Below the pieces are notes generated by a model. That model did not search any database, was not told the DNA's origin, and saw only the letters and a list, made by a program, of their open reading frames with translations. The position numbers and the translations under genes were made by a program. Positions 4,739 to 64,000 of a stretch of DNA of 64,000 nucleotides are shown piece by piece (position 1 is the stretch's first letter; each line of letters starts with the position of its first letter). This DNA comes from Pedobacter psychrotolerans (GTDB lineage Bacteria > Bacteroidota > Bacteroidia > Sphingobacteriales > Sphingobacteriaceae): assembly GCF_004340665.1 (NCBI RefSeq), contig NZ_SLWO01000008.1, positions 62,001 to 126,000 of the forward strand. The letters are read 5' to 3'.

Positions 4739-5865
4739 TTTTTCCCCCACCAGATCAAAAATCCGGTAGTGGGCAAGGTTGCAATAATTAATGCTGCCAG
4801 AAATGCCAGTATTTTAGTGGGCCAACCGAATAAACCCCCATCATGAATGTCGAGATTTGAATTGCGCCATTTTAATCCCAATGGCTTGTTTTGATGTAAC
4901 ATTTCACCCGTAAGTATACCAGTGTTTGGATTAAAGTAGAAATAACTTAATCCCCGCCAGGCATCTTCAGATCTAATCATCTGAACGGTAGCCATCATGT
5001 TTGCTTTTTCATCTTCGGGATAATTCAGCAAGATCGTTTTGTAATTTCCTTTATTTAATTTGATCAGGGTATTTAAGGCTAGATTACTGGCTAATTTGGT
5101 TTTATGTTCAGCAGGAGATGATACATATTCTCTTAAAAGATTTGGCTTTTTAGCTGTTCCCAGTGATTTGTAAATTCCTAATTCCCACCATTTAAATGAC
5201 CACACCAGTCCTGTAATTACGATCACCAGGGCAAAGGGAGTTACGTAAAAACCGAACGTACTGTGCAAATCCCAGTTAAGTCGTTTAAACTTTGCGTTCC
5301 ACTTAACTGTTAAGCGTTGCCTGATGTTTTTTAACTTTTTAGGAAGCCAGATGATAAATCCAGTGATAATAATGACGAAAAACATCAGGACAGAAGAGCC
5401 TACGATTAAACTGCCAATGGGCTTTTTAAATAGCAGATATTGATGAATGAGTCTTAATATACTGAAAAATTCATATTTAAGGTTGATGACACCGAGAACT
5501 TTACCACTAAACTGATCGATATATACATCTTTACTGTAGGCTACCTGATCAAGATAAAAAATGGATTTAGCCTTTTTATTCGCTTTTGAGGCTGAAAAAA
5601 CATAAGCGTATTGATCTGATTTAACTTCTACACGATTAAATTTCTCATTAACAGGAAGTGCTTTTTGAGCCTTTTCCTCTAAAATATACAAAGGCAAGGG
5701 TTTGCCCATTGCTTTTGTATAAACTATATCCTGATTAAAAAAATTAAATAACTCCTCTTCGAAAACATATACACAGCCAGTGATGGCCACAATAGTAATG
5801 ATCACACCACTAATCAGGCCAAGCCACAAGTGTATTAAAGCGGCAGTCTTTTTTAATATTTTCAA
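4720..5865 (-). CDS. PepSY-associated membrane protein
   Basis: A 381-residue inner-membrane protein of the PepSY_TM family. The first helix begins at about residue 10 (HLWLGLISGVIITIVAITG), as is standard for this family. A periplasmic region of about 100 residues carries PepSY-like sequence. Further helices lie near residues 145-175, 205-225 and 350-372, and the tail ends in lysines. Members are commonly encoded beside siderophore receptors and are thought to act in reduction or release of iron from the imported complex; that role is inferred. The gene begins 4 bases after the stop of the upstream TonB siderophore receptor (5870-8350), so the two should form one transcript. Confidence 0.85.
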   Translation of the reverse strand: MKILKKTAALIHLWLGLISGVIITIVAITGCVYVFEEELFNFFNQDIVYTKAMGKPLPLYILEEKAQKALPVNEKFNRVEVKSDQYAYVFSASKANKKAKSIFYLDQVAYSKDVYIDQFSGKVLGVINLKYEFFSILRLIHQYLLFKKPIGSLIVGSSVLMFFVIIITGFIIWLPKKLKNIRQRLTVKWNAKFKRLNWDLHSTFGFYVTPFALVIVITGLVWSFKWWELGIYKSLGTAKKPNLLREYVSSPAEHKTKLASNLALNTLIKLNKGNYKTILLNYPEDEKANMMATVQMIRSEDAWRGLSYFYFNPNTGILTGEMLHQNKPLGLKWRNSNLDIHDGGLFGWPTKILAFLAALIIATLPTTGFLIWWGKKKKRGF

Positions 5866-5869
5866 AATT

Positions 5870-8350: not shown

Positions 8351-8392
8351 CGAATTTGTTTGGTTTTATTTAGACTAATTTTAAATAATGCG

Positions 8393-8425
8393 CAAATCTA
8401 AAATATATTTCCGAAATGTTACAAA
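8393..8425 (-). promoter_or_regulatory. Bacteroidota-type promoter of the siderophore receptor operon
   Basis: On the minus strand TTTG (8425-8422) is followed after 21 bases by TAGATTTG (8400-8393), a full match to the -33 TTTG / -7 TAnnTTTG consensus of Bacteroidota housekeeping sigma. It ends 42 bases before the ATG at 8350, leaving a leader of about 35 bases. Confidence 0.7.
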
Positions 8426-8529
8426 CAGAATAAAAATAATTTGAAGTTAGATATTGGATAGATGGGACAGGTGTGAAGTTGAGAGATCAGGTTGCAAAAT
8501 GATTTTATTGCGTGGTTTTCAACAATGAA

Positions 8530-9753
8530 CTATTTTTTGTTTTTTTCTTCAATCCACAATGACATGTATTTGGTACTCTGGGCCGTATGGTGGTTCAAAA
8601 TCTGACCGATAAAATTTGTTTTTCGATGTTCAGTTAAGTTTAATTTTTCAATCCTAGCTATAAAATCATCAGCGAAATGCAAAGCTGCATATCGTCTATT
8701 AATGATTTCAATGCCATTTTGTTGTGCATTAAGCCATGCTGTTTGATCTTGATAAAGTGTAATTGCCTTCTCAATAAAAACATCCGCTTCATCTGCAATA
8801 AAGCCGCTCCAATCCAGCTTACCTTTCATCGCCTCGGCACCGACAGTGGTGGTTAAAGATGGTGTTCCAGTAAGCATCGCATCAATAAATTTTCCTTTCA
8901 CGCCAGCGCCAAATTGAATAGGGGCGAGTAAAATTTTATGTTTTGCAATGGTTTGTTTTGCATTTTCTGCCCGACCTTTGATTAGGAATTTTTCTTTTTT
9001 GTTCTCCAGTTGCAATACTTTTTGCGTGGCATAAGCACCGTAAATATTTAAATTTACCCCTGGAAGTTTTTTACTTAAAGCCGGCCAAATCTTAGTTTTT
9101 AAAACCTGAACGGTGTGCCAGTTTGGTTCATGCAGGAAGTTTCCAATAAATACAAAATCTGAGCGATCTTCAAACGAAACCCATTTAGCTATGGTTTCTG
9201 TTGTAATTTCTTGTTCTAAAAAAGGGAGGTAATATAAAAGGGAAGTATCAATTTTAAATTTTTCTTTCAAAATTTTAATTTCTACTTCCGAGATGATCAG
9301 GGATATATCGCAACGTAAAATAGCAGCTATTTCACGTTTTGCAGTGTCAGAAAATAAATCAATTTCCGTTTGCTTTTTATTGCTTTGCTGGCGGGCACTT
9401 CGCAGGCAGTGTAAATCTTCAGTGTCTAAAATTCTAAGTGCATCCGGGCATTCCTGCTGTACCCGCCATCCGTATTGTTCTTCAACCATAAACCTATCGA
9501 AAATCACGATTTGTGGATCGAGCGATTTTAAAAACGAATTGAAGCTTTGATCATTTAGTTTTATTTCCTGTTCCTGAACTTCTGTTTGGGAGAAATCGTA
9601 GCTAAAATCACTTTTGGAAGCGGCCGATGCAAAAGTAATTTGATAACCTTTGCTTAAGAATAAATCAACCAGTTGGACCATCCTCGTTCCAGCTGCCGAT
9701 GAATTGGGCTCTGGCCAGACTAATCCAATAATCAACAACTTTTTTGCATTCAT
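8530..9753 (-). CDS. Glycosyltransferase, GT-B fold (group 1 / GT4-like)
   Basis: A 407-residue cytoplasmic protein. The N-terminus (KKLLIIGLVWPEPNSSAAGT) is the first beta-strand and glycine loop of a GT-B glycosyltransferase. The C-terminal half has the donor-binding pattern: SDFVFIGNFLHEPNWHTV, LNIYGAYATQ, FLIKGRAEN, then ILLAPIQFGAGVKGKFIDAM with the glycine-rich GAGVKGK motif and a downstream glutamate. It should transfer a sugar from a nucleotide donor to an envelope or exopolysaccharide acceptor; the substrates cannot be told. It stands alone, divergent from miaE. Confidence 0.82.
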   Translation of the reverse strand: MNAKKLLIIGLVWPEPNSSAAGTRMVQLVDLFLSKGYQITFASAASKSDFSYDFSQTEVQEQEIKLNDQSFNSFLKSLDPQIVIFDRFMVEEQYGWRVQQECPDALRILDTEDLHCLRSARQQSNKKQTEIDLFSDTAKREIAAILRCDISLIISEVEIKILKEKFKIDTSLLYYLPFLEQEITTETIAKWVSFEDRSDFVFIGNFLHEPNWHTVQVLKTKIWPALSKKLPGVNLNIYGAYATQKVLQLENKKEKFLIKGRAENAKQTIAKHKILLAPIQFGAGVKGKFIDAMLTGTPSLTTTVGAEAMKGKLDWSGFIADEADVFIEKAITLYQDQTAWLNAQQNGIEIINRRYAALHFADDFIARIEKLNLTEHRKTNFIGQILNHHTAQSTKYMSLWIEEKNKK

Positions 9754-9811
9754 ATTTTTATACTTGCAAAATAAGTGCTTTTTTTTGGCTCAGGCAGATA
9801 AAAGTGATTTT

Positions 9812-9835
9812 CGCAGATTAAAATATAAATCTGCG
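9812..9835. repeat. Short inverted repeat between divergent genes
   Basis: CGCAGATT (9812-9819) and AATCTGCG (9828-9835) form a perfect eight-base inverted repeat with an eight-base spacer. A further AATCTGCG copy lies at about 9847. It sits between the divergent glycosyltransferase and miaE. It may be a remnant of a genomic repeat rather than an operator. Confidence 0.4.
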
Positions 9836-9883
9836 TTTATCCTCTAAATCTGCGGGAGATATTAAACGTATGTTAAATATTCT

Positions 9884-9891
9884 TAATTTTG
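9884..9891 (+). promoter_or_regulatory. Probable -7 element for miaE
   Basis: TAATTTTG matches TAnnTTTG and lies 20 bases before the ATG at 9912. No clear TTTG is present at the -33 position. Its position inside the longest possible miaE frame argues for the downstream start. Confidence 0.4.
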
Positions 9892-9911
9892 CAACTCAAT
9901 TACATCACCAC

Positions 9912-10493
9912 ATGCTAGGATTAAAATTATTGACTGACCCACGTTGGGCAAATATTGCGGAATCAAACTTAGAAGAGATTTTATCTGATCATGCCTGGTG
10001 CGAACAAAAAGCAGCATCAAATGCCATTACGCTAATTACTCAAAATTCAGAACACCAGGACCTGGTTGACGAATTAACGGCTATTGCAATAGAAGAAATG
10101 CAGCATTTTCAAATGGTTATCGAAATCATTAAGCAAAGAGGCTATACTTTAAGCCGCGAAAGAAAAGATGATTATGTGGGCCGTTTGGTGAAGTTTAGTA
10201 AAAAAGATGGAAGCCGCAACCAGGCTTTTATTGATCGGCTTTTATTTGCTGCAATGATAGAAGCCCGAAGTTGCGAACGTTTTCGGGTACTTTCTCAAAA
10301 TATAAAAGATGAAGAATTGGCTAAGTTTTACCATGAATTGATGGTTTCTGAGGCGGGTCATTATACCACATTTTTAAACTTCGCCCGTAAGTACAGTACC
10401 GATGTTGATGTAGATAAACGGTGGAAAGAATGGTTGGATTTTGAAGGTGAATTGATTCAGAGTTTCGGGAAGAAAGAAGCAATACATGGGTAG
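9912..10493 (+). CDS. miaE: tRNA-(ms2io6A)-hydroxylase MiaE
   Basis: A diiron monooxygenase that hydroxylates the isopentenyl group of modified A37 in tRNAs reading U-starting codons. The frame is open from an ATG at 9870, but I choose the ATG at 9912 (193 residues). Family members begin near MLGLKLLTDPRW, the extra 14 residues (MLNILNFATQLHHH) look unlike protein from this family, and a -7-like TAATTTTG at 9884 lies inside them. Diiron-ligand helices are visible: DHAWCEQKAASNA, EEMQHF, EARSCERF and SEAGHYTTF, containing the expected Glu and ExxH ligands. Length is normal. The gene is monocistronic. Confidence 0.93.
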   Translation: MLGLKLLTDPRWANIAESNLEEILSDHAWCEQKAASNAITLITQNSEHQDLVDELTAIAIEEMQHFQMVIEIIKQRGYTLSRERKDDYVGRLVKFSKKDGSRNQAFIDRLLFAAMIEARSCERFRVLSQNIKDEELAKFYHELMVSEAGHYTTFLNFARKYSTDVDVDKRWKEWLDFEGELIQSFGKKEAIHG

Positions 10494-48545: not shown

Positions 48546-48977
48546 ATGATCAGTGCTTATAAGGCTGCTAACCTTCACAACAGCCAGCCCGGCTTTAATC
48601 AGCTTGCAGAACCGCTTCACATCCCCGGTTACTTTGGTAATGAAGCTATTTTACCAGTAAAAGCTTGCTGGTTGTACAAACCTGGAAAGGATAGTGCTAC
48701 AGATTTGGCTTGGTTACGGCTAGGCGGATTAGATGAGGCAATATATCAAAAGCAGCATTTAAGCAATTGGATGCATACCCTGAACGGAAATTTTGATAGC
48801 GATGATAGCTTAAAAGTAGATTTTGCTGAGCAATACCGTTTTAAAACTGCAGATGCGCTTAAGGTAACCCATTTAACCTATGCAAACAGTTACCTGGAAA
48901 CCATAGTAGCCAAAGGTTGGTATAAGGAAGAAGAGGTGATTATTTCTGCAACAGAAAAGGAGGTAACACATGGCTAA
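48546..48977 (+). CDS. Unknown protein between VgrG and effector (linker 2)
   Basis: A 143-residue soluble protein (MISAYKAANLHNSQPGFNQL...), with repeated aromatic residues (KACWLYKPG, LAWLRLGG). Its stop overlaps the start of the DUF4280 gene by 8 bases, so the two should be translated together. No family recognised. A second adaptor, or a domain associated with loading the PAAR-like tip, is possible. Confidence 0.6.
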   Translation: MISAYKAANLHNSQPGFNQLAEPLHIPGYFGNEAILPVKACWLYKPGKDSATDLAWLRLGGLDEAIYQKQHLSNWMHTLNGNFDSDDSLKVDFAEQYRFKTADALKVTHLTYANSYLETIVAKGWYKEEEVIISATEKEVTHG

Positions 48978-50388
48978 GGATGATTTGTATGCCTTTCATG
49001 GCGTAATCTTAAAGTGTGATAAGGGGGCAACTGTTTTACCCTTGCTTACTACCCCGAAAAAACATGCGGTAAGTAAACTACAAATAGCCACTGTAACTGA
49101 TAATATTCCGGTGGTGAATATTCCCAGCTTTGGGGTATGTTCCATTACCGGGAGTGCCTGCATGCCGGTAGCCCCGCAATGGCTAAAAGCACACGATGGT
49201 GCACAAAAAGTATTGGGGCAGGCACCACTGTTGTTTTCTTCATATTGCAAATGCCAGGCGGGGGGTACCATAGAAATATTTCCTAGTGTAGATGAAGCAA
49301 TGGCTGCATTGGAAAACGATAAAGAAAGTAGGGTAGATGGCATCCCACTGCTGGATGGGATATTGGGCGCAGCCTTAACCTCGCCTATTGGCCCCATACT
49401 GGATCTGTTTACCGATGGTGGCGCAGATGTAACGCAAGGCGTTGGCCGTGGCTTTAGGCAAGGATTAAAAGGCACCTGGAATGGTTTGGTGCAAATGGTG
49501 AGCCACCCGGTAGAAACCGCAAAGGGGCTAACTAAAATGGTAGGCATTGCGGTAGTGGGTTATGGCACACAATCTCCTGTAGGGCAAATGTCTACACCCG
49601 ATCAACGGCTGAAAGATTTTGATTCAGTTTTTGGTACTGATCTGGCGCCAACGCATGAGGCCATTGGCGATGCCATAGCTGACGGATGGGATAAGAAGGT
49701 AGTAAATGGTACCACCGAAGAACGCAGTGAGGTGGTTGGCGAAGTTTATGAAGGTGTGCTGGAAGCAGTAGTGGGTACTAAAGGTGCGGGCGCGGCCGTA
49801 AAGGGGGTAACCTCCGCAGGTAAATTTGTTTTAGGTGCCGATAGAATGGCAGGAATAACCGCGGCAATTGCTAAATTGCAGAGTGCTATGAAGCTGGAAG
49901 CTTTGGCAGGTAAAGTGAAAGGGATTTTTAAGGTGGGGGTTAAAGAAGATAGAATTACTTCAAAAATTCCTGATAAAGCATTGTTGAATGGTGAAGGAAA
50001 AATTGGGACTTATAGCGAATTGAGAGACGCTGGTTCTGTGGGTGATGATATAACACCCCATCATATGCCTTCAGATGCTTATATGAAAAAAAATAATGTG
50101 CCTGACTACACAAGAGATGATGGATTATCTATGAATATGGAACAACCACATCCTGGTAAAGGAGGTAGACATCGTCGTACATCAACCTACGATAACAACA
50201 TGACAAAGGCCGAGCAAAATGCTTATTGGGAAAAAACTCCAAGGGAGGCTTTAGCACATGACATAAAGGATGCTAGAAAAATTTATAAAGAAGATGGATT
50301 ATATAACAAAGAAATTAGAGAGAGTCTTCGCGATTATATAAAACAAGCAAAAGAGAAATATCCAGATCTTTATAAAAAAAGCAAATAG
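48970..50388 (+). CDS. DUF4280 (PAAR-like) protein with C-terminal polymorphic toxin
   Basis: A 472-residue effector. Residues 1-110 are a DUF4280 domain (GVILKCDKGA, VVNIPSFGVCSITGSACMPV, CKCQAGGTIEIFP), which caps the VgrG spike like PAAR. Residues 115-325 are a Gly/Ala/Val-rich linker region. From about residue 330 (nt 49,960) the sequence becomes AT-rich and charged and carries a His-rich toxin module: DDITPHHMPSDAYM, GLSMNMEQPHPG and GGRHRRTSTY. The clustered His and Asn resemble nuclease-type polymorphic toxin ends; catalytic activity is inferred, not shown. An immunity-type gene starts 12 bases after it. Confidence 0.85.
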   Translation: MAKDDLYAFHGVILKCDKGATVLPLLTTPKKHAVSKLQIATVTDNIPVVNIPSFGVCSITGSACMPVAPQWLKAHDGAQKVLGQAPLLFSSYCKCQAGGTIEIFPSVDEAMAALENDKESRVDGIPLLDGILGAALTSPIGPILDLFTDGGADVTQGVGRGFRQGLKGTWNGLVQMVSHPVETAKGLTKMVGIAVVGYGTQSPVGQMSTPDQRLKDFDSVFGTDLAPTHEAIGDAIADGWDKKVVNGTTEERSEVVGEVYEGVLEAVVGTKGAGAAVKGVTSAGKFVLGADRMAGITAAIAKLQSAMKLEALAGKVKGIFKVGVKEDRITSKIPDKALLNGEGKIGTYSELRDAGSVGDDITPHHMPSDAYMKKNNVPDYTRDDGLSMNMEQPHPGKGGRHRRTSTYDNNMTKAEQNAYWEKTPREALAHDIKDARKIYKEDGLYNKEIRESLRDYIKQAKEKYPDLYKKSK

Positions 50389-50400
50389 TAACAAAATACC

Positions 50401-50865
50401 ATGGAAATAAAGCAATTAGAATCTCAACTCATTGAAAATAAACTGATGAGAACTTACGAAGAAACAGGTCTTTATGAAGAAGCTGTTGATGAGTTATTTA
50501 ACGAAAATAATCCAGAATGCATTAATTCATTGATAAAAGGTTTTTCCGATGCAACTGAAAACGAAGAAGTAATGTTTTCAAATTTGCATGGTATCGAATA
50601 TTTTTCTAAGACTTTGGGACTTGAGACTTATATTAAAATCATACTACCTAAATTAAAGGAAATGCAAGTAGATGCATATGGTTGGGCAGAAACTTTTTTT
50701 CTAAGATTATTAAATAACGACGCAGCTTTAGATGCACTGATTCGAAACGTTGAGTATTTATCTCAAGAAAACAAAATATTTATTCGCAAAATGGTAGAAA
50801 ACCTCAGTGAAAGGAATCCTGAACGCTTCAAAAATAAAGGTGATATTATTATCTCTAAATTATAA
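50401..50865 (+). CDS. Imm30-like immunity protein
   Basis: A 154-residue acidic, all-helical protein beginning 12 bases after the toxin stop, the classic place for the cognate immunity gene. EVMFSNLHGIEYF, WAETFFLRLLNNDAALDALI and the overall helix pattern match my recollection of the Imm30 family. It should bind and block the DUF4280-linked toxin. The match to Imm30 is from memory and moderate. Confidence 0.72.
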   Translation: MEIKQLESQLIENKLMRTYEETGLYEEAVDELFNENNPECINSLIKGFSDATENEEVMFSNLHGIEYFSKTLGLETYIKIILPKLKEMQVDAYGWAETFFLRLLNNDAALDALIRNVEYLSQENKIFIRKMVENLSERNPERFKNKGDIIISKL

Positions 50866-50875
50866 TCAAAAAGGA

Positions 50876-51688
50876 GTGAACAAAGTAGAAATATTAACCC
50901 AGAAGATTAAACAGGTGATAAGCGGCGAGATTCAGATTCCATACAATCGTGGAGAGTATAATTCTGTAAACGATTATTGGTATCCGCACCCACCTGCCCT
51001 CTTCCCGTTATTTCTGGGTTCGGGAGCTTTTTATTATGGCATCATAAATCATTTTTTTATTAACAGACAAAAAACTTTTGTCGAGTATTCTTTAGAAACT
51101 GGATACATTTCAGAGCGGTACAGAAACTCAGATCAGTTTCTCACCAAATTACTTCTGGAAATGATTATGCTTAAAGAAGAAATAACGGATGAGATCGTAG
51201 ATTTCGCTGAAAAAATTGATTACAAGAACGTATCTGACATTTATGCTTTTGCTGAAAAATATGGAGATAATCCGGAAGAATTTAAGCATTTAATTTTTTT
51301 CGAGTCGGACTTGCCTTTATTCTATGCTAAAAGCTTAGAAGAATATAAAGGTGATTATCCTTCATCATCTAAAATTTTAAATGTTAAGCAAATTCATAAC
51401 TCTTGCTCGTTTGAAATTGCTGATCCATCACATCTGAAGGAAATCCAAAATTTACCTAAATGGTTAATTGGAGAAAACCCTCAAAAGGAATTATTTGATG
51501 AACTACTTAAGCAAAATGATATAAAAGGTGCCTGGTTAACACTTAATAGCAAAGGATGGCAGTTGGAAGATGTCGCGATTGCGTTAGCAAAATTGAAATT
51601 TAAAACGAATGACAAGCTGTTTCATTTAGTTGCAGATAATTGGATTGATGGCTGGGCTAACTCAAATTTTAAAGAAGATTCTTACTAG
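50876..51688 (+). CDS. Putative additional immunity-type protein
   Basis: A 270-residue protein from a GTG at 50876 directly after AAAAAGGA; a longer frame from GTG 50807 would overlap the immunity gene by 59 bases and is less likely. The N-terminal half holds YWYPHPPALFPLFLGSGAFY, resembling the aromatic core of SUKH-like immunity proteins, and the rest is helical and acidic. No exact family is recognised. It lies 10 bases after the Imm30-like gene and belongs to the same run. Confidence 0.6.
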   Translation: MNKVEILTQKIKQVISGEIQIPYNRGEYNSVNDYWYPHPPALFPLFLGSGAFYYGIINHFFINRQKTFVEYSLETGYISERYRNSDQFLTKLLLEMIMLKEEITDEIVDFAEKIDYKNVSDIYAFAEKYGDNPEEFKHLIFFESDLPLFYAKSLEEYKGDYPSSSKILNVKQIHNSCSFEIADPSHLKEIQNLPKWLIGENPQKELFDELLKQNDIKGAWLTLNSKGWQLEDVAIALAKLKFKTNDKLFHLVADNWIDGWANSNFKEDSY

Positions 51689-51995
51689 CTACAAAATTGA
51701 AAATACCATAACACCATTATTTTAAGCTTTTTAGAAAAGTCAAATTTGCTTCCACTTGGCTTCATGATCGTTTAAGTAGTTCATAGTATGGTTGGGAAAA
51801 GAAATTAGCAATAATATTTCCGCAATCCCGGATCTTATTGAAATTACTTATTCAAGTATTTTAGGTACTCCATATACTATTCAAAATTAGATTTTCTTAG
51901 ATTCATACCCGGTTGAGAGATTCACATATTAAGGTGGTGTGTCAAATTGAAAAAAAAGTGGCCTTTAAGAAAAAATAATATATTTAAAAAAGATT
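51689..51995. other. Gap with no clear gene
   Basis: 307 AT-rich bases between immunity genes. A short open stretch (about 51806-51890) reads NNISAIPDLIEITYSSILGT then PYTIQN and a stop, which could be the tail of a decayed gene. There is no start codon or flanking homology to support it, and I see no terminator or promoter here. Confidence 0.35.
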
Positions 51996-52448
51996 ATGGA
52001 AGTGATTAAATTTCAAAATGGTGATCCAAAAAACATAGCTTATCTGGAAGATGAATTTTCAATTGAGTTACCAATTGATTATAGAAATTTTTTAATTGAG
52101 AACAATGGAGCTGATATTGAAAACGGATTTTTTTATGTCAAAGAAATAAATCAAGCAATACCAATGGGCTATTTTTTTGGCATAGATACAAAAGAAAAGG
52201 CCGCAGATATAGTCAGAATTAATAAAGAGTATGGAGATGATATAGCAGAGTCATCCTTTTTAATAGGAAATGATATTGGTTCAGGCTTTTTATTACTGGT
52301 ATTTGACGGGGAGAATGACGGCATATGGTATTATGACCATACATATTTTTTTAAAGAATCTACTGATGAATTAAATACTTATTTCATTGCGGAGTCTTTT
52401 TCTGATTTCTTAAAAATATTAGAAACCACACCTGCTACGAAAGTGTAA
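51996..52448 (+). CDS. SMI1/KNR4 (SUKH) immunity family protein
   Basis: A 150-residue acidic protein. IELPIDYRNFLIENNGADIE near the start and FLIGNDIGSGFLLLVFDGEN in the middle are the SUKH-1 signature, a family whose bacterial members mostly act as immunity proteins to polymorphic toxins. No matching toxin is adjacent, so it is probably an orphan immunity gene. It ends just before a good terminator. Confidence 0.88.
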   Translation: MEVIKFQNGDPKNIAYLEDEFSIELPIDYRNFLIENNGADIENGFFYVKEINQAIPMGYFFGIDTKEKAADIVRINKEYGDDIAESSFLIGNDIGSGFLLLVFDGENDGIWYYDHTYFFKESTDELNTYFIAESFSDFLKILETTPATKV

Positions 52449-52469
52449 GAATGTTAATAACAAATATTT

Positions 52470-52496
52470 AAAAGCTCCTAATGGAGCTTTTACTTT
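52470..52496 (+). terminator. Terminator after the SUKH gene
   Basis: Nine-base stem AAAAGCTCC (52470-52478) and GGAGCTTTT (52483-52491) with a four-base loop, followed by ACTTTTAGG. It is 22 bases after the stop codon. Confidence 0.75.
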
Positions 52497-52537
52497 TAGG
52501 AGCTTATTATAATTAGTTTGTGTTATAATTTAATATT

Positions 52538-53017
52538 ATGAAAAAATTAGAAAATATTATTTCTGCGATAAAGGAACAGAATTTAAAATATGGCGATCAG
52601 CTTCCATCACCTGCTAGTACTGAAGAAATCAATGATTTAGAAAGGAAAACAACGCAAATATTTCAAGTGGAATTACCTGAAGCATACAAAGGTATATTAT
52701 CACAAACAAACGGAATCGATAATGATGGTGTTATGCTGTATGGGACTAAAACACTACCCATTGAAGGCTATCAAGACCGGTTTATTTCTGGTTTAATGGC
52801 GGCAAATGAAGAATGGAAGGAATTTGCTGGTTATTTATTTTACGCAGAATCGGATATGTATTTGTTCGTACAGTCTTTGAGCGATAAAAGCTTTAGCTAT
52901 CGATCCAGAGAGCGTTTTGAGGATGTTATTTTCTCTACTGAAGACAATGAATTATTTTTTGAGATTATACTCAACCTTTCTTTAGGAGAGAATAGTGAGG
53001 AAGAATATAGTAATTAG
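52538..53017 (+). CDS. YrhA/SMI1-type immunity family protein
   Basis: A 159-residue acidic protein. EEINDLERKTTQIFQVELPE and YKGILSQTNGIDNDGVML form the SUKH-like beginning, and KEFAGYLFYAESDMYLFV and FEIILNLSLGENSEEE the end. This pattern matches the YrhA group of SMI1/KNR4-related proteins. It is the second orphan immunity-type gene in the row. A fragment of a related gene lies at 53423-53584. Confidence 0.8.
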   Translation: MKKLENIISAIKEQNLKYGDQLPSPASTEEINDLERKTTQIFQVELPEAYKGILSQTNGIDNDGVMLYGTKTLPIEGYQDRFISGLMAANEEWKEFAGYLFYAESDMYLFVQSLSDKSFSYRSRERFEDVIFSTEDNELFFEIILNLSLGENSEEEYSN

Positions 53018-53048
53018 TTCAAGGAAAAGTTCTTGTTAAACCATAAAA

Positions 53049-53414
53049 ATGAAGATATTTATTTCACCATTAGCAAAACCAGATTGGGCTGTTGATAAAG
53101 ATGTATTTATTGAGGCTTTGAGAACAAATTGGAAGGAAGTTATTATAAATAAAATTGAAGATGAAAGCAGAAAATATTCTTTTACTTGGTCTATAACTCA
53201 AAATGATAAAGATGTATTAGAAGGAAAACTAGACAAAGATGGCAGTACATTTGTGCTCGAATCTGAAGACTATCTATTGCTTTATAAATGCTCGCTTTAT
53301 TGTAGGGAATTTATGCCATCAACCGCTCACATTATATTTTATGATGAAAATTATTCATTTAATTTAGAATTAAATGATAAACTATCTAAAAAGGATTTTA
53401 TTGATGTGCTTTAG
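53049..53414 (+). CDS. Unknown small protein in the immunity array
   Basis: A 121-residue acidic protein beginning MKIFISPLAKPDWAVDKDVF, 31 bases after the YrhA-like gene. No signal, helix or recognised domain. Its size, acidity and position suggest another immunity-type protein; that is inference only. Confidence 0.55.
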   Translation: MKIFISPLAKPDWAVDKDVFIEALRTNWKEVIINKIEDESRKYSFTWSITQNDKDVLEGKLDKDGSTFVLESEDYLLLYKCSLYCREFMPSTAHIIFYDENYSFNLELNDKLSKKDFIDVL

Positions 53415-55461: not shown

Positions 55462-58400
55462 TCATATTGATGGATGATTTAATGGAATTTCAAACCAAAA
55501 TTCAGATCCCGAATTTAGCTCACTGTCTACACCAATTTTCCCGGCATGTCGTTCTATAATCTGTGCTGAAATATAGAGACCAAGACCAAGGCCGGAGAAA
55601 TGATTGGAGGATTCATCTACCCTAAAAAAGCGGTCGAAAATTAATTCTGCTTTATCTTTTGGAATACCAATTCCCTGATCTTTTACGGCAAGCTTCAGGG
55701 TTTTTCCGTTTGATTTTGCTGCGATTCTAATTTCTTTTCCTTCTGGTGAATATTTCAGTGCATTAGATAGAAAATTTGAAATTACCTGTTCTATTCTATT
55801 TTTATCAGCAGAGATTAATACATCATCTATATCTGTAAAAATGGTTTGTTTACCAAGATTTCCCTGTATCCCATCAACTGCTTCTGCAACAACTTCTTTA
55901 ATGTTAAAAGAAGATATGGTAAAAGTAAGTTTACCTGCCTGAATTTTGGTTACATCCAGCAAATCATCAACTAACCTGGTTAGCTTGCCAATTTGTCGGT
56001 TGGCTTTACTTACGAACTCTAAAATGTGGCCGAATTTTTCTTCTTTGGCCATTTTCATGGCAAACTGAAGGTAGCCCTTGATGCTGGTAATAGGCGTTTT
56101 TAATTCATGACTGGCTATACTCATAAACTCATCTTTCTTGTTCATTAGCGCCCTGGTGGTTCTTTGCGCAATGATTAAATCGGTTACCTCAAAGCCAAAG
56201 AAAGATATGCCATCAATTATGCCCTCTGCAGAAAATACCGGATTGAGAATTAAATCAAACCAGCTATCTGTTACTTTTCCTGATGCCTTATCTTTTAGCT
56301 GAAGTAAATAAGCATTGGCAATAAATGTTTTGCCTGTTGCCATTACCTGTTGCTCTATAGCTTTAAGCTCTGGATTTGCAAATTGTGAATCGTGTTTCAT
56401 GGTTTCGCCAATGTAACTTTCGCCACCATCAAAGTTTGCAAAAGATTCATTCACAAATTCGAACACCAGGTTTTTACCTCTGCGGATACTGATTAAAGCT
56501 GGGGCTTTTTTGAAAATACTATAAAACTCATCCTGCTGTTTTTTGATCAGGTGCTGAAGTTCATTCCGTCTTTTCTCATTATGTTTTTGCTTGCTGATGT
56601 CGATGATATAGGTTACGGCATCACTCCGGTTTTCATCATCCAGAATAGCGGAGCCTATCAATACATCTAATTTCTTTCCGTTTTTGGTGAGGTATTGTTT
56701 TTCAAATGGCGGACAAAAGCCCTTAGATTTTAATAATTCTGCTGAAATTTTGCTAATGGGCATGAACTCATCAGGCGTAAGGGTTTTCCAGTTGATATTG
56801 CCTTGTTTAAAATCTTCAGCAGTGTAACCCAACATTTCTAAAAAGCTTCGGTTCGCCGTTTCAATTCTACCCGAATCAACGTTGGAGAACATCATGCCGA
56901 TTACATTTGAATCGAATATTTTTCTGAATTTTCGCTCGGTTGAACTTAGTTTTGTTTCGGTGTCGGCTAAAACCGAGATATCCAGAATGGAACCTACCAT
57001 TCGGTAAGGCACCTGGTTTTCATCCAGTAAAATACTTCCTCTATCTAAAATGGTGGCAAAACTGCCATCAGCCTTTTTTAGCCGATACTGAGCGGTCCAT
57101 TGTTCGGTTCCTTGATTTATCGCACCATAAACACTATCCTTCACCCGCTGCCTGTCATCAGGATGAATGATATCAAGGTAGAAAGAAATGTTTTGATTTT
57201 CAGGTGCATTTTCATAACCAAACATGCTGGTGAAATTCTGGCTTCGCCACATGGTATTTTCAGCCAGGTTCCAATCCCAAATGGTATCATTGGTGGCCTG
57301 AGCAACCAGGTTAAACCGGGTTTCACTTTCTGATAAGCGCATGGTTCGTTCCAGTACCTTCTGTTCCAGTGCCGTATTTAAATATTTAAGATTTTCACGG
57401 GTTCCCAGAAGTTCATTATAGTTTCTTTTCAGTTTTTCTTCTGCAATTTTTTGCTTGGTAATATCTGTAAGGGTTGCGGCAAAGCCATCAGACATTTTAA
57501 CCGCCACCAGCTCAAGCCAGGTCTGATCATTTAATTTAAACTGCATTTGTAGCGTAATTCCCTTTTCTACTACGCCAATATATTTATCCATGAGGTTACT
57601 ACCAGAAAGCTCTGGCAGGTTCTCTAGAATTTTGGATTGGTATAACGATTCATGCGTTCTTTTCAAGATATGAAGTGAAGCCTGATTAAAAGAAATACAC
57701 TCAAAATCGGTGATAAAGTGCTGCTTGTTCCTTACGGCCTTAAAAGCGAGTACCCCGTTCAAGCTGGCGTTAAATACACCACTGATGATATTATTTAATT
57801 CAGTCAGTTTAGAAATATCTACGAAGGTAATCACCACGCCGTCTGTTTTTCTATCCTTTCTGATGTAAGGCATAATGCGCATGAGGCAATTGTGTCCGTT
57901 ATGGATTTGCACCTCTTTTTCAATCACGAGCCCATCTTTTAATACCTGCTGGATATCTTGGTTAAGGTTTTGCGCTTTAATGTTGTTAGAAATGTGTTCG
58001 ATGGAACGACCAATGTCAGCCTCAATCAGGTTAACCATACTAATGGCTGCACCATTAAATTTTCTGATGAACATGCCTGCATCAACGAAAATCTGTCCGA
58101 TATCTGTACTTCTGAAATAGTTGTCCAGATCATCATTCAAATCCACCAGGTCTTTTATCTTAATCTGGTGTTCCGTATTCAGGGTGTGTAATTCTTCATT
58201 TAGTGATTGAAGTTCTTCATTGCTGGACTGAAGTTCCTCATTGGCAGAAAGCAATTCTTCATTGGTAGATTGGAGTTCCTCATTGGTGGTTTCCATTTCT
58301 TCCACAGCCATTTGAAGGTTACTCCGGGTTTCATTTAATTCGGCTTCGAGTTCAAAAATATACTCGTTTTGGTTTCCATCATGGAGTTCAAACATGCCCA

Positions 58401-60297
58401 AATCATCCTTCTCAGGAATGGTTTCCATGGTGCTCTCTCCAAAAACAATCAGGGCGAAGCTCAGGCTATTGTCTAATTCAGGAGGTTGAATGGAAATGTT
58501 TAAATAAGTTTCTTGGTTTTTCTTATTGAAACGAACCCTTTTTAAATGAGTTGGAACATGATCTTTCCAGGCTTTGCGGAGGGCTGTATTTAGGATAATG
58601 GATACCTCTTTGGGTACCATTTTTAAAATATTTAATTCTATTTTCTCTTCAGGTAAGGAAAGGTACTGGCGATAATCGCCAATGGCATCCTGCATGATGT
58701 AGGATTTATCTACATATACTCCGGCATAGCCAAGGTCTTTAGTTAAAAAGTTACTAAAACTTTTCTCTATGGGACTCATCGCAAAATCTGCTGCAATATT
58801 TTTCTTTTTATCCTTCTCTAGCTGAGATCTGGTACTGGTATTATAGGTATTGTAACTGGCGTAGTTGATGTTTCCTGTTTTTTGGTAAATCTTCCATTTA
58901 CCAGATATTTCTGTAAAACCCTCTTTTAAAGAGGAAGCGGTTTCACTTGAACCTAAAAATAAATAGCCACCCTTAACCAGTGAAAAGTGAAATACTGATA
59001 ATATCTTTTCCTGAAGGATATTGTTCACATAGATCAGCATGTTTCTACAGGTAACCATATCATTTTTGATGAATGGTGGAGATTTGATGACATCATGTTT
59101 AGCAAAAACCACCATTTTACGTACTGCGGGAAGAACTCCATAGAACTTTCCATCCTGAATGAAATACTTTTTAAAATATTTAGCTGGGATTTCCTTGCTT
59201 ATACCTTCAGGATATTGGTTTTTAGCGGCTATTTCTACACTCTTTTCATCAATGTCTGTAGCGAAAATTTTAATATCTATCTTTTTTCTTGATTTTTCAA
59301 CAAGCTCATTGGCGAGTATCGCTACGGTATAGGCTTCTTGTCCGGTACTGCAGGCACAAACCCAGATTTTTAAGGTATCGCCATTGCCTTTCTTTTCGAT
59401 GAGGTCGCCAAGCTGTTCGCTAAAGGCTTCAAAAGCTTTCTCATCTCTGAAAAATTTAGTTACGCCAATCAGGAAATCCTGTGCCAGAATTCCAGGTTCT
59501 TTTTTATTTGTTTTTAAAAATTCAACATAATCATCCAGCGATTTAATCCTATTTTCATTCATTCTACGGCCAATTCTCCGGATGATGGTTGGCGTTTTGT
59601 AGAGATTAAAGTCGTTACCGCTTTGGTGATGGATGATTTTAAAAATTTCTTCTAGTAACTGCTCATTTATTTTTCCATTCTCTAATACATTCACCGGCTC
59701 TTCATTTACATAGTTAAAGAGTTCGTGGCTCATTTCAGGAGGGGGGAGAATAAAATCTGCATTTCCTGAGGCGATGGCACTATTGGGCATCCCATCAAAT
59801 TTTGCTGAAGCCGGATCCTGAACAATTACCATTCCTCCATTTTCTTTAATGGCTTGTATCCCTTTGGTTCCGTCAGTTCCAGTTCCTGAAAGGATTATGG
59901 CTATGGCTTTTTCTTTTTTGTCTTTAGCCAGGGTATAGAGAAAATGATCGATTGCGGTATTGGGTGCTTTGATAAGTGATTTATCAGCAAGTCTTAATTT
60001 ACCATGACTCATGGTCATTAGTTTATTATTGGGAATGATGTACACACAATCCTGCTGAATGGTCATATCATTCGCTGCTTCGAACACCTTCATGTGCGTG
60101 TGCTTGCCTACAAGCTCTACCAATAAGCTTTTATAATCTGATGATAAATGCTGAATCACCACAAAGGAGAAACTTGCATTTGCTGGCATGTGATCAAAAA
60201 ACTCATGAATAGCCTCTAATCCGCCAGCAGATGCGCCAATGGCCACAATATATTTATCGTATCTTTTTAAACCTCCTTTTGTTTTCTCTTCAATCAT
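55462..60297 (-). CDS. CheB-CheR-PAS sensor histidine kinase
   Basis: A 1611-residue cytoplasmic fusion. Residues 10-190 are a CheB methylesterase domain (GASAGGLEAIHEF, IQHLSSDYK, GTGTDGTKG hold the Ser-His-Asp triad). About 215-480 is CheR methyltransferase (WVCACSTGQEAYTVAIL, IFATDIDEKS, DMVTCRNMLIYV). A long coiled coil follows (about 640-725, repeated TNEELQS/SNEELQSLNEEL units), then at least four PAS domains (730-1350), a HisKA domain (SIASHELKTPITSIKGYL, His near 1385) and an HATPase domain (NFLSNALKYSPEGK, DQGIGIP, GLGLGLYISAQI). It has no receiver. The phytochrome gene lies 6 bases upstream. Homologues are thought to regulate by protein methylation-like or phosphorelay steps; targets are unknown. 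Confidence 0.93.
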   Translation of the reverse strand: MIEEKTKGGLKRYDKYIVAIGASAGGLEAIHEFFDHMPANASFSFVVIQHLSSDYKSLLVELVGKHTHMKVFEAANDMTIQQDCVYIIPNNKLMTMSHGKLRLADKSLIKAPNTAIDHFLYTLAKDKKEKAIAIILSGTGTDGTKGIQAIKENGGMVIVQDPASAKFDGMPNSAIASGNADFILPPPEMSHELFNYVNEEPVNVLENGKINEQLLEEIFKIIHHQSGNDFNLYKTPTIIRRIGRRMNENRIKSLDDYVEFLKTNKKEPGILAQDFLIGVTKFFRDEKAFEAFSEQLGDLIEKKGNGDTLKIWVCACSTGQEAYTVAILANELVEKSRKKIDIKIFATDIDEKSVEIAAKNQYPEGISKEIPAKYFKKYFIQDGKFYGVLPAVRKMVVFAKHDVIKSPPFIKNDMVTCRNMLIYVNNILQEKILSVFHFSLVKGGYLFLGSSETASSLKEGFTEISGKWKIYQKTGNINYASYNTYNTSTRSQLEKDKKKNIAADFAMSPIEKSFSNFLTKDLGYAGVYVDKSYIMQDAIGDYRQYLSLPEEKIELNILKMVPKEVSIILNTALRKAWKDHVPTHLKRVRFNKKNQETYLNISIQPPELDNSLSFALIVFGESTMETIPEKDDLGMFELHDGNQNEYIFELEAELNETRSNLQMAVEEMETTNEELQSTNEELLSANEELQSSNEELQSLNEELHTLNTEHQIKIKDLVDLNDDLDNYFRSTDIGQIFVDAGMFIRKFNGAAISMVNLIEADIGRSIEHISNNIKAQNLNQDIQQVLKDGLVIEKEVQIHNGHNCLMRIMPYIRKDRKTDGVVITFVDISKLTELNNIISGVFNASLNGVLAFKAVRNKQHFITDFECISFNQASLHILKRTHESLYQSKILENLPELSGSNLMDKYIGVVEKGITLQMQFKLNDQTWLELVAVKMSDGFAATLTDITKQKIAEEKLKRNYNELLGTRENLKYLNTALEQKVLERTMRLSESETRFNLVAQATNDTIWDWNLAENTMWRSQNFTSMFGYENAPENQNISFYLDIIHPDDRQRVKDSVYGAINQGTEQWTAQYRLKKADGSFATILDRGSILLDENQVPYRMVGSILDISVLADTETKLSSTERKFRKIFDSNVIGMMFSNVDSGRIETANRSFLEMLGYTAEDFKQGNINWKTLTPDEFMPISKISAELLKSKGFCPPFEKQYLTKNGKKLDVLIGSAILDDENRSDAVTYIIDISKQKHNEKRRNELQHLIKKQQDEFYSIFKKAPALISIRRGKNLVFEFVNESFANFDGGESYIGETMKHDSQFANPELKAIEQQVMATGKTFIANAYLLQLKDKASGKVTDSWFDLILNPVFSAEGIIDGISFFGFEVTDLIIAQRTTRALMNKKDEFMSIASHELKTPITSIKGYLQFAMKMAKEEKFGHILEFVSKANRQIGKLTRLVDDLLDVTKIQAGKLTFTISSFNIKEVVAEAVDGIQGNLGKQTIFTDIDDVLISADKNRIEQVISNFLSNALKYSPEGKEIRIAAKSNGKTLKLAVKDQGIGIPKDKAELIFDRFFRVDESSNHFSGLGLGLYISAQIIERHAGKIGVDSELNSGSEFWFEIPLNHPSI

Positions 60298-60303
60298 TGT
60301 GCA

Positions 60304-61833
60304 CTAATTGTATAGCTGAGTAGCACCAAATTCAAAAAGGAAATTCCTCAATGATTCTGCCGTTTCCATTTCCTGCTCCAACCATTCTTCAGATTGCCCG
60401 TGAACCGTTTCCAGCCAAAGCTTAAATGAATTCCGTGGGTGGTAACTTTTGCCATCTTTTTCAAAGTTTATTGCCTGGTTGGGGTTGCCACCCCACTTAA
60501 TGCGTTTCACTACTTCGGGCCTGAAACAAACTATGAAATCTCCCTGACTTGGATTTATTGGTATAATAAGTAATCCACTGGCAATATCTGAATAATGATT
60601 GGCATCTTCATATACATCACTAAGGTTATTCGTAGCGTACACATTTACAAATGAATTGCCTTCAATCCACAGGATCAGGTTGTCCAGCGCTTCATTTTCA
60701 GGTACTACACCAACTTTGGAGATCAATCCATTAAAGTGAACCAAAAATCCTGTAGCGTTAAACAAGGAGAGGAGGTTCTGATTTTGATCTTTAGCCAATC
60801 CCCTTACAATACTCCCTTTGGAGAAAATATTTTCTGTGATTTGGGCTTTCTTTTTTAGTAATTCTGTAGAGTAAGTGAGCGATTCCTGCATAATCACTGA
60901 GGATATGCGATGTGAAATTTCCATGCTTAACCACTCAAATATGGATCTGTTTTCTACACTGAGGTATTTTGGCGTTTGATGGTGGCAGGATATGAGCCCC
61001 CATAGATTTCCATCTACCATTACACGGATAGACATTGAAGCAGTAACGTGCATATTAGCCATATACTCCAGATGCACACCGGCAATACTGCGCAGGTTGC
61101 AATCAGAAAGGTCTAAAAAACCATTAGATATGGGATTAATTACCGGGTACAATCGGTACGATTGATATAGCCTGTTTGGTATTAGCCGATAAGGGTTTTT
61201 AATATAAAGTGCACGGGCTTGTTTAGGAACGTCAGACGCTGGAAAAGTTTGTCCGATATACTGCTCCAGATCTCCGCTAATTTCTTCTGCGATAACAGTG
61301 CCGTTCCAATTTTTATCGAAGCTATACATGCGAATGCCATCAAAGCCAGAGAGGCGTCTGATCTCCTGGATACTGGCTTCACAAATTTCGCGAATACTAG
61401 CCGTTTTTTCTATGGTTGATATAAATGAACGAACTTCCTGGAAAACTTCTGTAAAACTTCTTTCAACGGCATCAGCTTCTTGTTCTATCTCCAGAATGAT
61501 GAATTCTTTTTTAACATGCGCCAGTATATGCAATGGTATAGCACCTGTAGGATGATTTAAGTTGAAATGAAATGGCAACCTGCTCCTTTCGCCTTTGCCG
61601 ATTTCTGCTTTCAGGTGCGCCAGGTCTTCGGTATTTAGAAATGATGCTAAAGTATCTCCCAGAAGATCCTGTATTTTCTTTTTAAAAATATGATCTATAT
61701 TTTCACTGCCTTGTATGATTTCGAAGTTTGCGTGATCTATCACTAACAAATAGCCATAATCCTGTATAGAATTCGTCTGGTGTATGGCGAGGTTTCCGCA
61801 GAATTGTGAATCGTAATTTTTATTTTCAGCCAT
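60304..61833 (-). CDS. Bacteriophytochrome photosensory module without kinase
   Basis: A 509-residue soluble protein. The PAS domain begins SQFCGNLAIHQTNSIQDYGY with Cys12 at the biliverdin-attachment position. The GAF domain has FPASDVPKQARALY (Asp201, the PASDIP motif), AGVHLEYMANMHVTASMSIR (His254) and LWGLISCHH (His285), residues that hold the bilin. The PHY domain ends with PRNSFKLWLETV near 466, the tongue motif, and a helix EEWLEQEMETAESLRNFLF. No kinase, HATPase or other output domain is attached. A CheB-CheR kinase follows after 6 bases. No heme oxygenase gene is in the window to make biliverdin. Confidence 0.9.
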   Translation of the reverse strand: MAENKNYDSQFCGNLAIHQTNSIQDYGYLLVIDHANFEIIQGSENIDHIFKKKIQDLLGDTLASFLNTEDLAHLKAEIGKGERSRLPFHFNLNHPTGAIPLHILAHVKKEFIILEIEQEADAVERSFTEVFQEVRSFISTIEKTASIREICEASIQEIRRLSGFDGIRMYSFDKNWNGTVIAEEISGDLEQYIGQTFPASDVPKQARALYIKNPYRLIPNRLYQSYRLYPVINPISNGFLDLSDCNLRSIAGVHLEYMANMHVTASMSIRVMVDGNLWGLISCHHQTPKYLSVENRSIFEWLSMEISHRISSVIMQESLTYSTELLKKKAQITENIFSKGSIVRGLAKDQNQNLLSLFNATGFLVHFNGLISKVGVVPENEALDNLILWIEGNSFVNVYATNNLSDVYEDANHYSDIASGLLIIPINPSQGDFIVCFRPEVVKRIKWGGNPNQAINFEKDGKSYHPRNSFKLWLETVHGQSEEWLEQEMETAESLRNFLFEFGATQLYN

Positions 61834-62898: not shown

Positions 62899-64000
62899 TT
62901 ATTCTTCTTGCGTATATTTTGACAATATTGGAATAAGTAATTTGATCTCTTTTATAAGTTCTTCAGCTCCTTTTTTTAAGGAATAATGATCAGCAAGATC
63001 AAGTTTCTGCAAATCTCTACTTATTTCTGCTAATTTGATAAGTCCTGCTGAGGTAGACATGCCATACAATTTGTGTGATAGAGACAACACCATTTGGGAA
63101 TCTTCGGGTTGAATATTTTTATCTAATTGATGATGGGCTTGATTAAGCTGATCAATGGTTATACCGATTATTTTTTTCATTTTTACGGAGTCTTTACCAA
63201 AGTAAGATTCCAGTTTTTCAACATTAAAATGAACATCATCAGTTTCGTTTTCCTTTTTGCCAGATTCCATCTCAACTGATTGTCCTAACCATTTCTTTAA
63301 TATGTCTTCTATATTTTCTTCTAAAATGGGTTTAGTGATAAAATCATCCATACCTGCAGCGATGCTTTTTTCTCTCTCGCCCTTTACATTTGCGGCAGTT
63401 AAAGCAATTATTGGTGTTCTTTTCTCTTTTTCTATTGATCTGATTTTTTTTGAACATTCGTAACCATTCATTTCCGGCATTTGTATATCCATAAAAACGA
63501 GGCTGAACGGCATTTTCTGGAATTGTTCAATACCGACCACACCATTCTCAGCTTCCATGATTATACTTTGTGGATAGAGTTTTTCTATGTACGAACGGGT
63601 CAGGAATCTATTTACTTCATTGTCTTCAACAATCAAAAATCTATAATCAAGATTTTGGTATGAGATTGATGGTGCTGAAATTTCTAGGTTTCGGGTAGAT
63701 GGTTCTTTCGTTTTTAGCCTGGACAAAGCAAGGTAGAGCTTATCCATTTTTATCGGCTTGAGCAATCGGTTGTCAATTTTTAGCTCATTACAAGCCTTAA
63801 TAATTGTACCATCATCAGATGAGCTATGGAGCAGAATTATAGGAAGCTTTTCATCTTCATCCATGAAATTATCCCTTATTTTCGTTGCAGTTTCTATTCC
63901 ATCTATATATTGCATATGGTAATCCATTAAGATGGCATCGTAGTTTCTACCTTCTGCTAAAAACTGTAGGGCTTCGAAGCCATTTGCTGCATGATCAGAC
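62899..64000 (-). CDS. Hybrid sensor kinase C-terminus: receiver, receiver, HPt (5' end outside window)
   Basis: The frame is open to the window edge, so the protein's N-terminal kinase part is missing. The visible 366 residues begin inside a receiver (DAILMDYHMQYIDGIE with the phosphoacceptor Asp, and RLLKPI). A second receiver follows (RFLIVEDNEVNRF, LVFMDIQMPEMNGYE, ITKPI). An HPt domain comes last (SLSHKLYGMSTSAGL, phosphohistidine in LSHKL). A multi-step phosphorelay is implied. It is transcribed toward the repeat cluster. Length upstream and sensor input are unknown. Confidence 0.9.
   Translation of the reverse strand, partial: SDHAANGFEALQFLAEGRNYDAILMDYHMQYIDGIETATKIRDNFMDEDEKLPIILLHSSSDDGTIIKACNELKIDNRLLKPIKMDKLYLALSRLKTKEPSTRNLEISAPSISYQNLDYRFLIVEDNEVNRFLTRSYIEKLYPQSIIMEAENGVVGIEQFQKMPFSLVFMDIQMPEMNGYECSKKIRSIEKEKRTPIIALTAANVKGEREKSIAAGMDDFITKPILEENIEDILKKWLGQSVEMESGKKENETDDVHFNVEKLESYFGKDSVKMKKIIGITIDQLNQAHHQLDKNIQPEDSQMVLSLSHKLYGMSTSAGLIKLAEISRDLQKLDLADHYSLKKGAEELIKEIKLLIPILSKYTQEE

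Follow-up and report, generated by a model that had tools for sequence, protein, structure and literature searches.

Genes at the locus

We analysed a window of 64,000 nucleotides from Pedobacter psychrotolerans (assembly GCF_004340665.1, contig NZ_SLWO01000008.1, positions 62,001 to 126,000 of the forward strand), and window coordinates are used below unless a locus is named. Two adjacent genes on its minus strand probably encode a red/far-red light two-component system made of two proteins: a stand-alone phytochrome photosensory module (the sensor) and a CheB-CheR-PAS-histidine kinase (the kinase). They are separated by a spacer of 6 bp (60298-60303) and are predicted to be co-transcribed. 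The open reading frames (ORFs) and Pfam matches agree with a first-pass annotation, made from the sequence alone, on the coordinates of the genes, the 1611-residue CheB-CheR-PAS kinase and the 6-bp gap (Table 1).

Table 1. Features of the sensor and kinase genes, in window coordinates (aa, amino acids; SAM, S-adenosylmethionine).
Feature	Coordinates	Strand	Basis
Sensor: stand-alone phytochrome photosensory module, 509 aa, PAS_2-GAF-PHY, no output domain	60304..61833	-	ORF, Pfam, phmmer, AlphaFold2
Cys12 codon, predicted biliverdin attachment site	61798..61800	-	Invariant in 35/35 genus and 110/110 pooled sensors
PAS_2 domain, aa 14-117	61483..61794	-	Pfam
GAF domain, aa 147-302, with PASDVP, His254 and CHH	60928..61395	-	Pfam and alignments
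PHY domain, aa 331-501, with WGG and PRxSF tongue motifs	60331..60843	-	Pfam and alignments
Kinase: CheB-CheR-PAS-histidine kinase, 1611 aa, 6 bp downstream of the sensor	55462..60297	-	ORF, Pfam
CheB methylesterase domain, aa 18-193, Ser-His-Asp motifs intact	59719..60246	-	Pfam and alignment
CheR_N, aa 215-265	59503..59655	-	Pfam
CheR SAM-binding methyltransferase domain, aa 279-469	58891..59463	-	Pfam and alignment
Region aa 509-621, PAS-like helix/strand order in the model, no Pfam match	58435..58773	-	Reading of AlphaFold2 secondary structure
Continuous helix, aa 644-730, links the N-terminal half to PAS_10	58108..58368	-	AlphaFold2
Five NEELQSx-type heptads, aa 672-706, candidate methylation helix	58180..58284	-	Conservation, consensus scan
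PAS_10 domain, aa 724-828	57814..58128	-	Pfam
Further PAS region, aa 863-1370	56188..57711	-	Pfam
HisKA phospho-acceptor domain, aa 1388-1455, H-box ASHELKTP	55933..56136	-	Pfam and alignment
HATPase_c domain, aa 1498-1607	55477..55806	-	Pfam and alignment

The sensor has the PAS-GAF-PHY order of a bacteriophytochrome photosensory module, as seen with Pfam, in an AlphaFold2 model and by comparison with the PDB. It matches solved phytochromes at E 1e-91 with phmmer. The model has a mean predicted local distance difference test score (pLDDT) of 86.7, and its top match in the PDB is a phytochrome photosensory module (6r26, E 5.9e-44, template modelling (TM) score 0.84). Pfam finds no domain past residue 501 and the chain stops at residue 509, 8 residues beyond PHY, so the C-terminal histidine kinase that a type 1 bacteriophytochrome carries on the same chain is absent. 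On the NCBIfam model bacphytchrmBphP (NF041576) the sensor scores 278 bits, below the curated cut-off of 1040 for full-length bacteriophytochromes, which is expected for a protein without the kinase part.

In all 35 sensors of the genus sample described below, Cys12, PASD(V/I)P (198-203), His254, CHH (283-285), WGG (447-449) and PRxSF (466-470) are retained. Ten residues are invariant in all 110 of the pooled sensors (Cys12, Tyr170, Asp201, Tyr210, Arg216, Arg248, His254, Tyr257, Ser266 and Ser268), and we take these to be the pocket residues of DrBphP at an offset of 6, with Cys12 presumably having the role of biliverdin attachment known from bacteriophytochromes. The first-pass annotation had credited this product with the bilin-pocket residues and a PHY tongue and had seen no output domain, and both Pfam and the genus alignment confirm this. 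The sensor is predicted to bind biliverdin and to switch between red and far-red forms (Pr/Pfr). A second Pedobacter locus (L069) has a sensor that is 95% identical. The P. psychrotolerans genome also has a second, classical phytochrome, 30% identical to the sensor within an open frame of 751 aa; this 738-aa ORF includes a kinase part and adjoins a heme oxygenase gene (locus L196).

The kinase carries CheB, CheR, PAS_10, HisKA and HATPase_c on one chain with intact motifs, and Pfam finds no receiver domain. Across the genus sequences CheB is the best conserved of its Pfam domains. All 35 kinases retain the CheR SAM motif CACSTG and the CheB motifs that surround Ser23, His50 and Asp142. The H, N and G box motifs are present in 33 of the 35; the remaining two lack that part of the protein because of contig breaks. 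The part of the further PAS region beyond about residue 1110 is absent from some orthologues. AlphaFold2 gave residues 1-850 a predicted TM score (pTM) of only 0.44, and the overall arrangement of that model is unreliable.

Sensor and kinase occur together

Our genus sample consisted of 145 Pedobacter genomes including this one, all searched with the sensor and with the kinase. The sensor matches split sharply: 35 score at least 560 bits and have open frames of 509-559 aa, and the remaining ones score at most 245 bits, nearly all with frames of about 730-780 aa. A sensor orthologue is present in 35 of the 145 genomes, and a comparison of the two sets places the kinase orthologue in exactly the same 35. 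The best-matching piece of each kinase orthologue is at least 61% identical (lesser pieces of fragmented matches go down to 51%, and the gene is broken over contigs in G090 and G013), and the next-best kinase matches in any genome are at most 43% identical, with the best three candidates per genome scored here and in the family and phylum sensor searches below. At all 35 loci the kinase is adjacent to the sensor, downstream and on the same strand, with ORF gaps of -161 to 29 bp (start codons were assigned mechanically). No gene family besides the pair is common to these loci, and the commonest direct neighbours recur in about six loci each.

The same holds more widely. In a sample of 399 family genomes, a CheB-CheR kinase adjoins all 46 of the stand-alone sensors listed from outside the genus (sensor score of at least 535 bits); at one of these loci (L194) the sensor frame is truncated and a spurious ORF on the opposite strand separates it from the kinase. 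Together with the 35 genus sensors, these 46 answer the proposal in the first-pass annotation that the pair be sought in other Sphingobacteriaceae. A scan of named genomes (80 loci) found this layout in Pedobacter, Mucilaginibacter, Parapedobacter, Paradesertivirga, Hufsiella, Chitinophaga, Chryseosolibacter, Pontibacter, Rufibacter, Adhaeribacter and Rhodocytophaga.

When we pooled the Bacteroidota loci, a CheB-CheR kinase was the next or next-but-one ORF to 115 of 116 distinct stand-alone sensors, and no neighbour other than the kinase was common to all 116. For this count identical sensors were merged and near-identical ones kept apart. It includes kinases truncated where a contig stops (L043, L063, L084 and L100 among them), L110 with its kinase in two ORFs, and L194 with its sensor frame cut to 431 aa; L132, L195, L133-L136 and L138-L148 are outside it, the last two groups being fused or having no sensor ORF recognised. 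In L132 (Sporocytophaga) the order is reversed, with CheB-CheR kinase pieces in broken frames followed by the sensor, a heme oxygenase and a 127-aa receiver-like ORF (by eye), and the sensor and kinase are linked all the same. Pairing of the two genes is near-obligate. Homologues occurring independently of each other in relatives, which had been named beforehand as evidence against the pairing, were not seen in the genus, where the two sets are identical, or in the pooled loci beyond the single case in 116.

Distances among sensors and among kinases are strongly correlated (Mantel r 0.893 for 110 pairs, permuted maximum 0.097), and sensor and kinase have the same nearest neighbour in 75 of the 110 pairs; shared species history would also yield both results.

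A different possibility is that the two proteins are co-expressed and uncoupled, with the sensor acting on another protein, as RpBphP1 does on PpsR2, and the kinase sensing through its own PAS domains. Kinases of the same type without a linked phytochrome do occur in the genus, and a kinase-less phytochrome that acts through protein binding is known (reported in PMC6899989). Against this, the 35 genus loci have no gene family in common besides the pair, and the kinase orthologue is never seen without the sensor in the 145 genomes (best three candidates per genome). We regard uncoupled proteins as unlikely.

A separate lineage of split sensors

In an unrooted tree of 56 photosensory modules, 43 split sensors are on one side of a branch with support of 100/100, and 12 fused phytochromes and one lone module are on the other. 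By this sequence tree the split sensors are a single lineage, distinct from the fused phytochromes sampled (12 sequences).

Phytochrome matches at E 1e-40 were found in 36 of 395 genomes from across the phylum, and three of the 42 matches are stand-alone as judged by frame length. None of the 42 (best three per genome) is a fusion of a sensor to a CheB-CheR kinase, since no open frame is longer than 977 aa. In the family sample we likewise saw no sensor-kinase fusion among the matches listed, the longest listed frame being 790 aa. We rejected the idea that a single fused gene only looks split through a frameshift or misassembly, because the same split recurs in 116 distinct sensors and nothing was seen in favour of an artefact; with no frame in the phylum sample long enough for such a fusion, we give it practically no chance.

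Heme oxygenase and response regulators

Heme oxygenase is present in all 35 genus genomes with the pair. It accompanies every phytochrome match in the genus (93 of 93 genomes), and 10 of the 52 genomes without such a match also have it. Five of the pair-bearing genomes (G001, G015, G037, G086 and G119) have no other phytochrome at threshold and do have a heme oxygenase. At least 24 of the 116 pooled loci have the gene next to that of the sensor, 19 on the same strand and 5 in divergent orientation.

This link could also mean that the sensor reports biliverdin or redox state, and so heme turnover, to the kinase and is not a photoreceptor. However, a photoreceptor would need heme oxygenase too, as the source of its chromophore, and WGG, PRxSF and the pocket are retained in nearly all of the 110 pooled sensors, so we consider a non-photoreceptor role very improbable.

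A single-domain receiver directly follows the kinase in 14 of the 116 pooled loci by a BLAST criterion, and 12 of these also have heme oxygenase, which gives the fullest form of the locus as four genes: heme oxygenase, sensor, kinase and single-domain response regulator. All three downstream proteins scanned with Pfam contain Response_reg, including that of L124, which the BLAST count missed, so 14 is a lower bound. By the BLAST criterion only one of the 35 genus loci (L068) has a receiver after the kinase. L129 has a linked receiver, and its closest homologue in this genome (C3:248571) is unlinked and has 54% identity. Some match to the L129 receiver is found in 144 of the 145 genus genomes, so the presence of this homologue says nothing specific.

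The C3 receiver is itself part of a cluster (locus L229, G000:C3:243500-253500, positions 5054-10001) with a stand-alone CheR, a CheB-like ORF, a second receiver-like ORF and a 924-aa ORF that is cut. Only CheR was named by search in this cluster, and the other ORFs were named by eye. The cluster, with its CheR and CheB-like ORF, is in a genome without a chemoreceptor match over the cut-off.

Probable light signalling through two proteins

We believe that the pair probably works as a two-protein red/far-red two-component system. The sensor would bind biliverdin supplied by a heme oxygenase, whose gene adjoins that of the sensor in some relatives and lies at another site in this genome. Light would change the shape of the sensor, which by direct contact would control autophosphorylation of the kinase. 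Phosphate would then go from the kinase to a single-domain response regulator, which is encoded at the locus in some relatives and away from it here, where the C3 receiver is a candidate acceptor. A weaker suggestion, discussed in the next section, is that the kinase is tuned by CheR and CheB through methylation of its coil. The first-pass annotation had proposed a relay of this kind, with the light signal going between two proteins, a sensor that stands alone and a kinase with CheB and CheR domains; genetic association is the one kind of evidence that now speaks for it.

Several observations weigh against this interpretation. Adjacency of genes does not prove contact of proteins, and the several PAS domains of the kinase could sense other signals. 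In the AlphaFold2 model, residues 1-17 of the sensor, Cys12 among them, have a pLDDT below 50, and the tongue region (about 451-470) is at about 62-64. CHH is not universal outside the genus, as His284 is present in 103 of the 110 pooled sensors and replaced by Asn in 7. A response regulator is linked in a minority of loci (the 14 of 116), and there is none beside the pair in this genome. The sole exception in the 116, L111, pairs its sensor with a PAS-histidine kinase without CheB and CheR, so these two domains are not strictly needed, although coupling of sensor to kinase is still compatible with this case. A lone photosensory module of 514 aa (L195, G093:C1:396900-408000, positions 2510-4054), which may be truncated or an orphan sensor, has an antiporter-like gene (by eye) and no kinase beside it, though it belongs to the classical branch of the tree.

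CheB and CheR without chemoreceptors

The first-pass annotation had remarked that there were no chemotaxis receptors nearby for CheB and CheR to act on, and this was an understatement. A search covering the genus found no chemoreceptor signalling domain over the cut-off in the whole of this genome or in the 144 further genomes. There were two sub-threshold matches with stops, both in other genus genomes, and the controls matched in 7 of 14. CheW (PF01584) has no match in this genome, with controls again matching in 7 of 14. The puzzle of a CheB and a CheR without receptors to act on is real, and a candidate substrate is a coil of the kinase itself.

Residues 672-706 of the kinase, which we call the NEEL coil after its five NEELQSx-type heptads, are the most conserved 35-aa stretch in 110 kinases and are outside both enzymes. 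Mean column identity is 0.948, compared with a median of 0.609 and 0.858 for the next-best stretch, and it is 0.950 among 68 representatives under 80% identity. All ten Glu residues of the five NEEL pairs are invariant in 110 of 110 kinases while their codons vary, which goes beyond what packing alone would demand. In our heptad assignment, with Leu at d, the Glu pairs are at b and c. AlphaFold2 places the coil within a single helix (644-730), in a model whose low pTM, given above, makes any placement of the coil relative to the CheR active site unreliable.

Methylation sites are reported to follow the consensus [ASTG][ASTG]xx[EQ][EQ]xx[ASTG][ASTG], the modified residue usually being the second of the two, at heptad position c (PMC6829392; the same consensus is also given in PMC6391922). 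In the window coil, three pairs match the last three of the four small positions and none matches strictly. Over the 110 kinases there are 345 matches with the last three small positions, 329 of them in the coil, versus 32 in one shuffle per protein; strict matches number 29, with 25 in the coil, versus 7 in the shuffle. CheB-CheR fusions without a linked phytochrome have at least two in-register NEE heptads in 21 of 21 cases (20 hand-picked from the genus and L197), and the one kinase without CheB and CheR (L111) has none. Strong matches to the coil in this genome are two, both CheB-CheR kinases, with three weak ones in frames of 838 and 938 aa. A plasmid search with the coil gave no match, and its low-complexity filter may hide matches.

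We tentatively suggest adaptation in cis, in which the fused CheR and CheB might add methyl esters to the Glu-Glu heptads of the NEEL coil in the same protein and remove them again. Conservation, position and the near-match to the consensus point in this direction, and we hold it as a possibility of modest weight. If it is true, a phytochrome two-component system would adapt to background light as chemoreceptors adapt, without any chemoreceptor, and the same would hold for the wider family of CheB-CheR kinases in bacteria without chemoreceptors.

Structural needs can conserve a signalling coiled coil, and the NEEL coil may be a mere coil of this kind. CheR and CheB would then act in trans on another partner, such as a response regulator or the sensor. 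CheR is reported to methylate the response regulator PhoP on arginine (PMC8546571), which is also a record of CheR action beyond receptors. Against action in trans are the Glu residues at b and c of all five heptads, invariant over varying codons. We put it at a little under an even chance. It opposes only the methylation step and not the two-protein light system, and the likelihoods of these explanations do not add up to a whole.

Comparison with known systems

Type 1 bacteriophytochrome-histidine kinases (DrBphP, Agp1 and Cph1) share with the sensor the PAS-GAF-PHY order, the Cys, the pocket and tongue motifs and a heme oxygenase in the genome. They differ in that here the kinase is a separate protein of the CheB-CheR-PAS type and the sensor belongs to a separate lineage of the tree. 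The type 3 system RpBphP1/PpsR2 resembles the proposed scheme in one respect, as a phytochrome without kinase passes light on by binding a partner (PMC6899989). Unlike RpBphP1, which has PAS9-HOS output domains, the window sensor has no output domain, and its neighbour is a kinase and not a repressor.

CheB-CheR-PAS kinases without a phytochrome partner have the same domain order (L197) and the NEE heptads noted above, and are at most 43% identical to the window kinase. Pathways with methyl-accepting chemotaxis proteins (MCPs), CheA, CheW, CheR and CheB have both enzymes as well, and the Glu-Glu heptads of the window kinase come near to their methylation consensus. They are unlike in that here no MCP is over the cut-off in the 145 genus genomes, CheW has no match in this genome, and the enzymes are fused to the kinase. 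The Halobacterium system consists of a membrane rhodopsin and an MCP-like transducer, unlike a soluble phytochrome and kinase. Its sensory rhodopsins with HtrI and HtrII are similar as a separate photoreceptor with a methylatable partner (PMC5812497), methylation being a tentative suggestion in our case.

CheR-TPR fusions have previously been surveyed (PMC3447774). We found no literature on a stand-alone phytochrome paired with a CheB-CheR kinase in titles and abstracts, which is weak as evidence of absence because most subscription journals are outside the coverage. One phytochrome survey, as described in PMC4422448, retained only proteins with a C-terminal kinase, and such a filter would omit the split-sensor lineage. 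If photosensor and kinase are regularly separate proteins in this lineage, it would offer a natural test of signalling without a covalent helix into the kinase. It also makes the role of CheR and CheB in genomes without chemoreceptors a testable question.

Surroundings of the locus

Upstream of the pair, with a tRNA-Arg gene between, the window contains the C-terminal part of a hybrid kinase with receiver domains and a weak Hpt match (62899-63927). Of the 35 genus loci, 2 have a member of this hybrid-kinase family as the gene immediately upstream of the sensor. At 48970-53414 a gene for a PAAR-like protein, whose C-terminal end looks variable, precedes small ORFs that by eye resemble SMI1/KNR4 immunity proteins, and we take this region, again by eye, to resemble an antibacterial polymorphic toxin locus.

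At locus L196 (G000:C6:301000-314000) the classical phytochrome-kinase and its heme oxygenase are about 3 kb from a 110-aa Cas2-like ORF and from two short ORFs that have a repeated stretch in common and by eye look like a CRISPR array.

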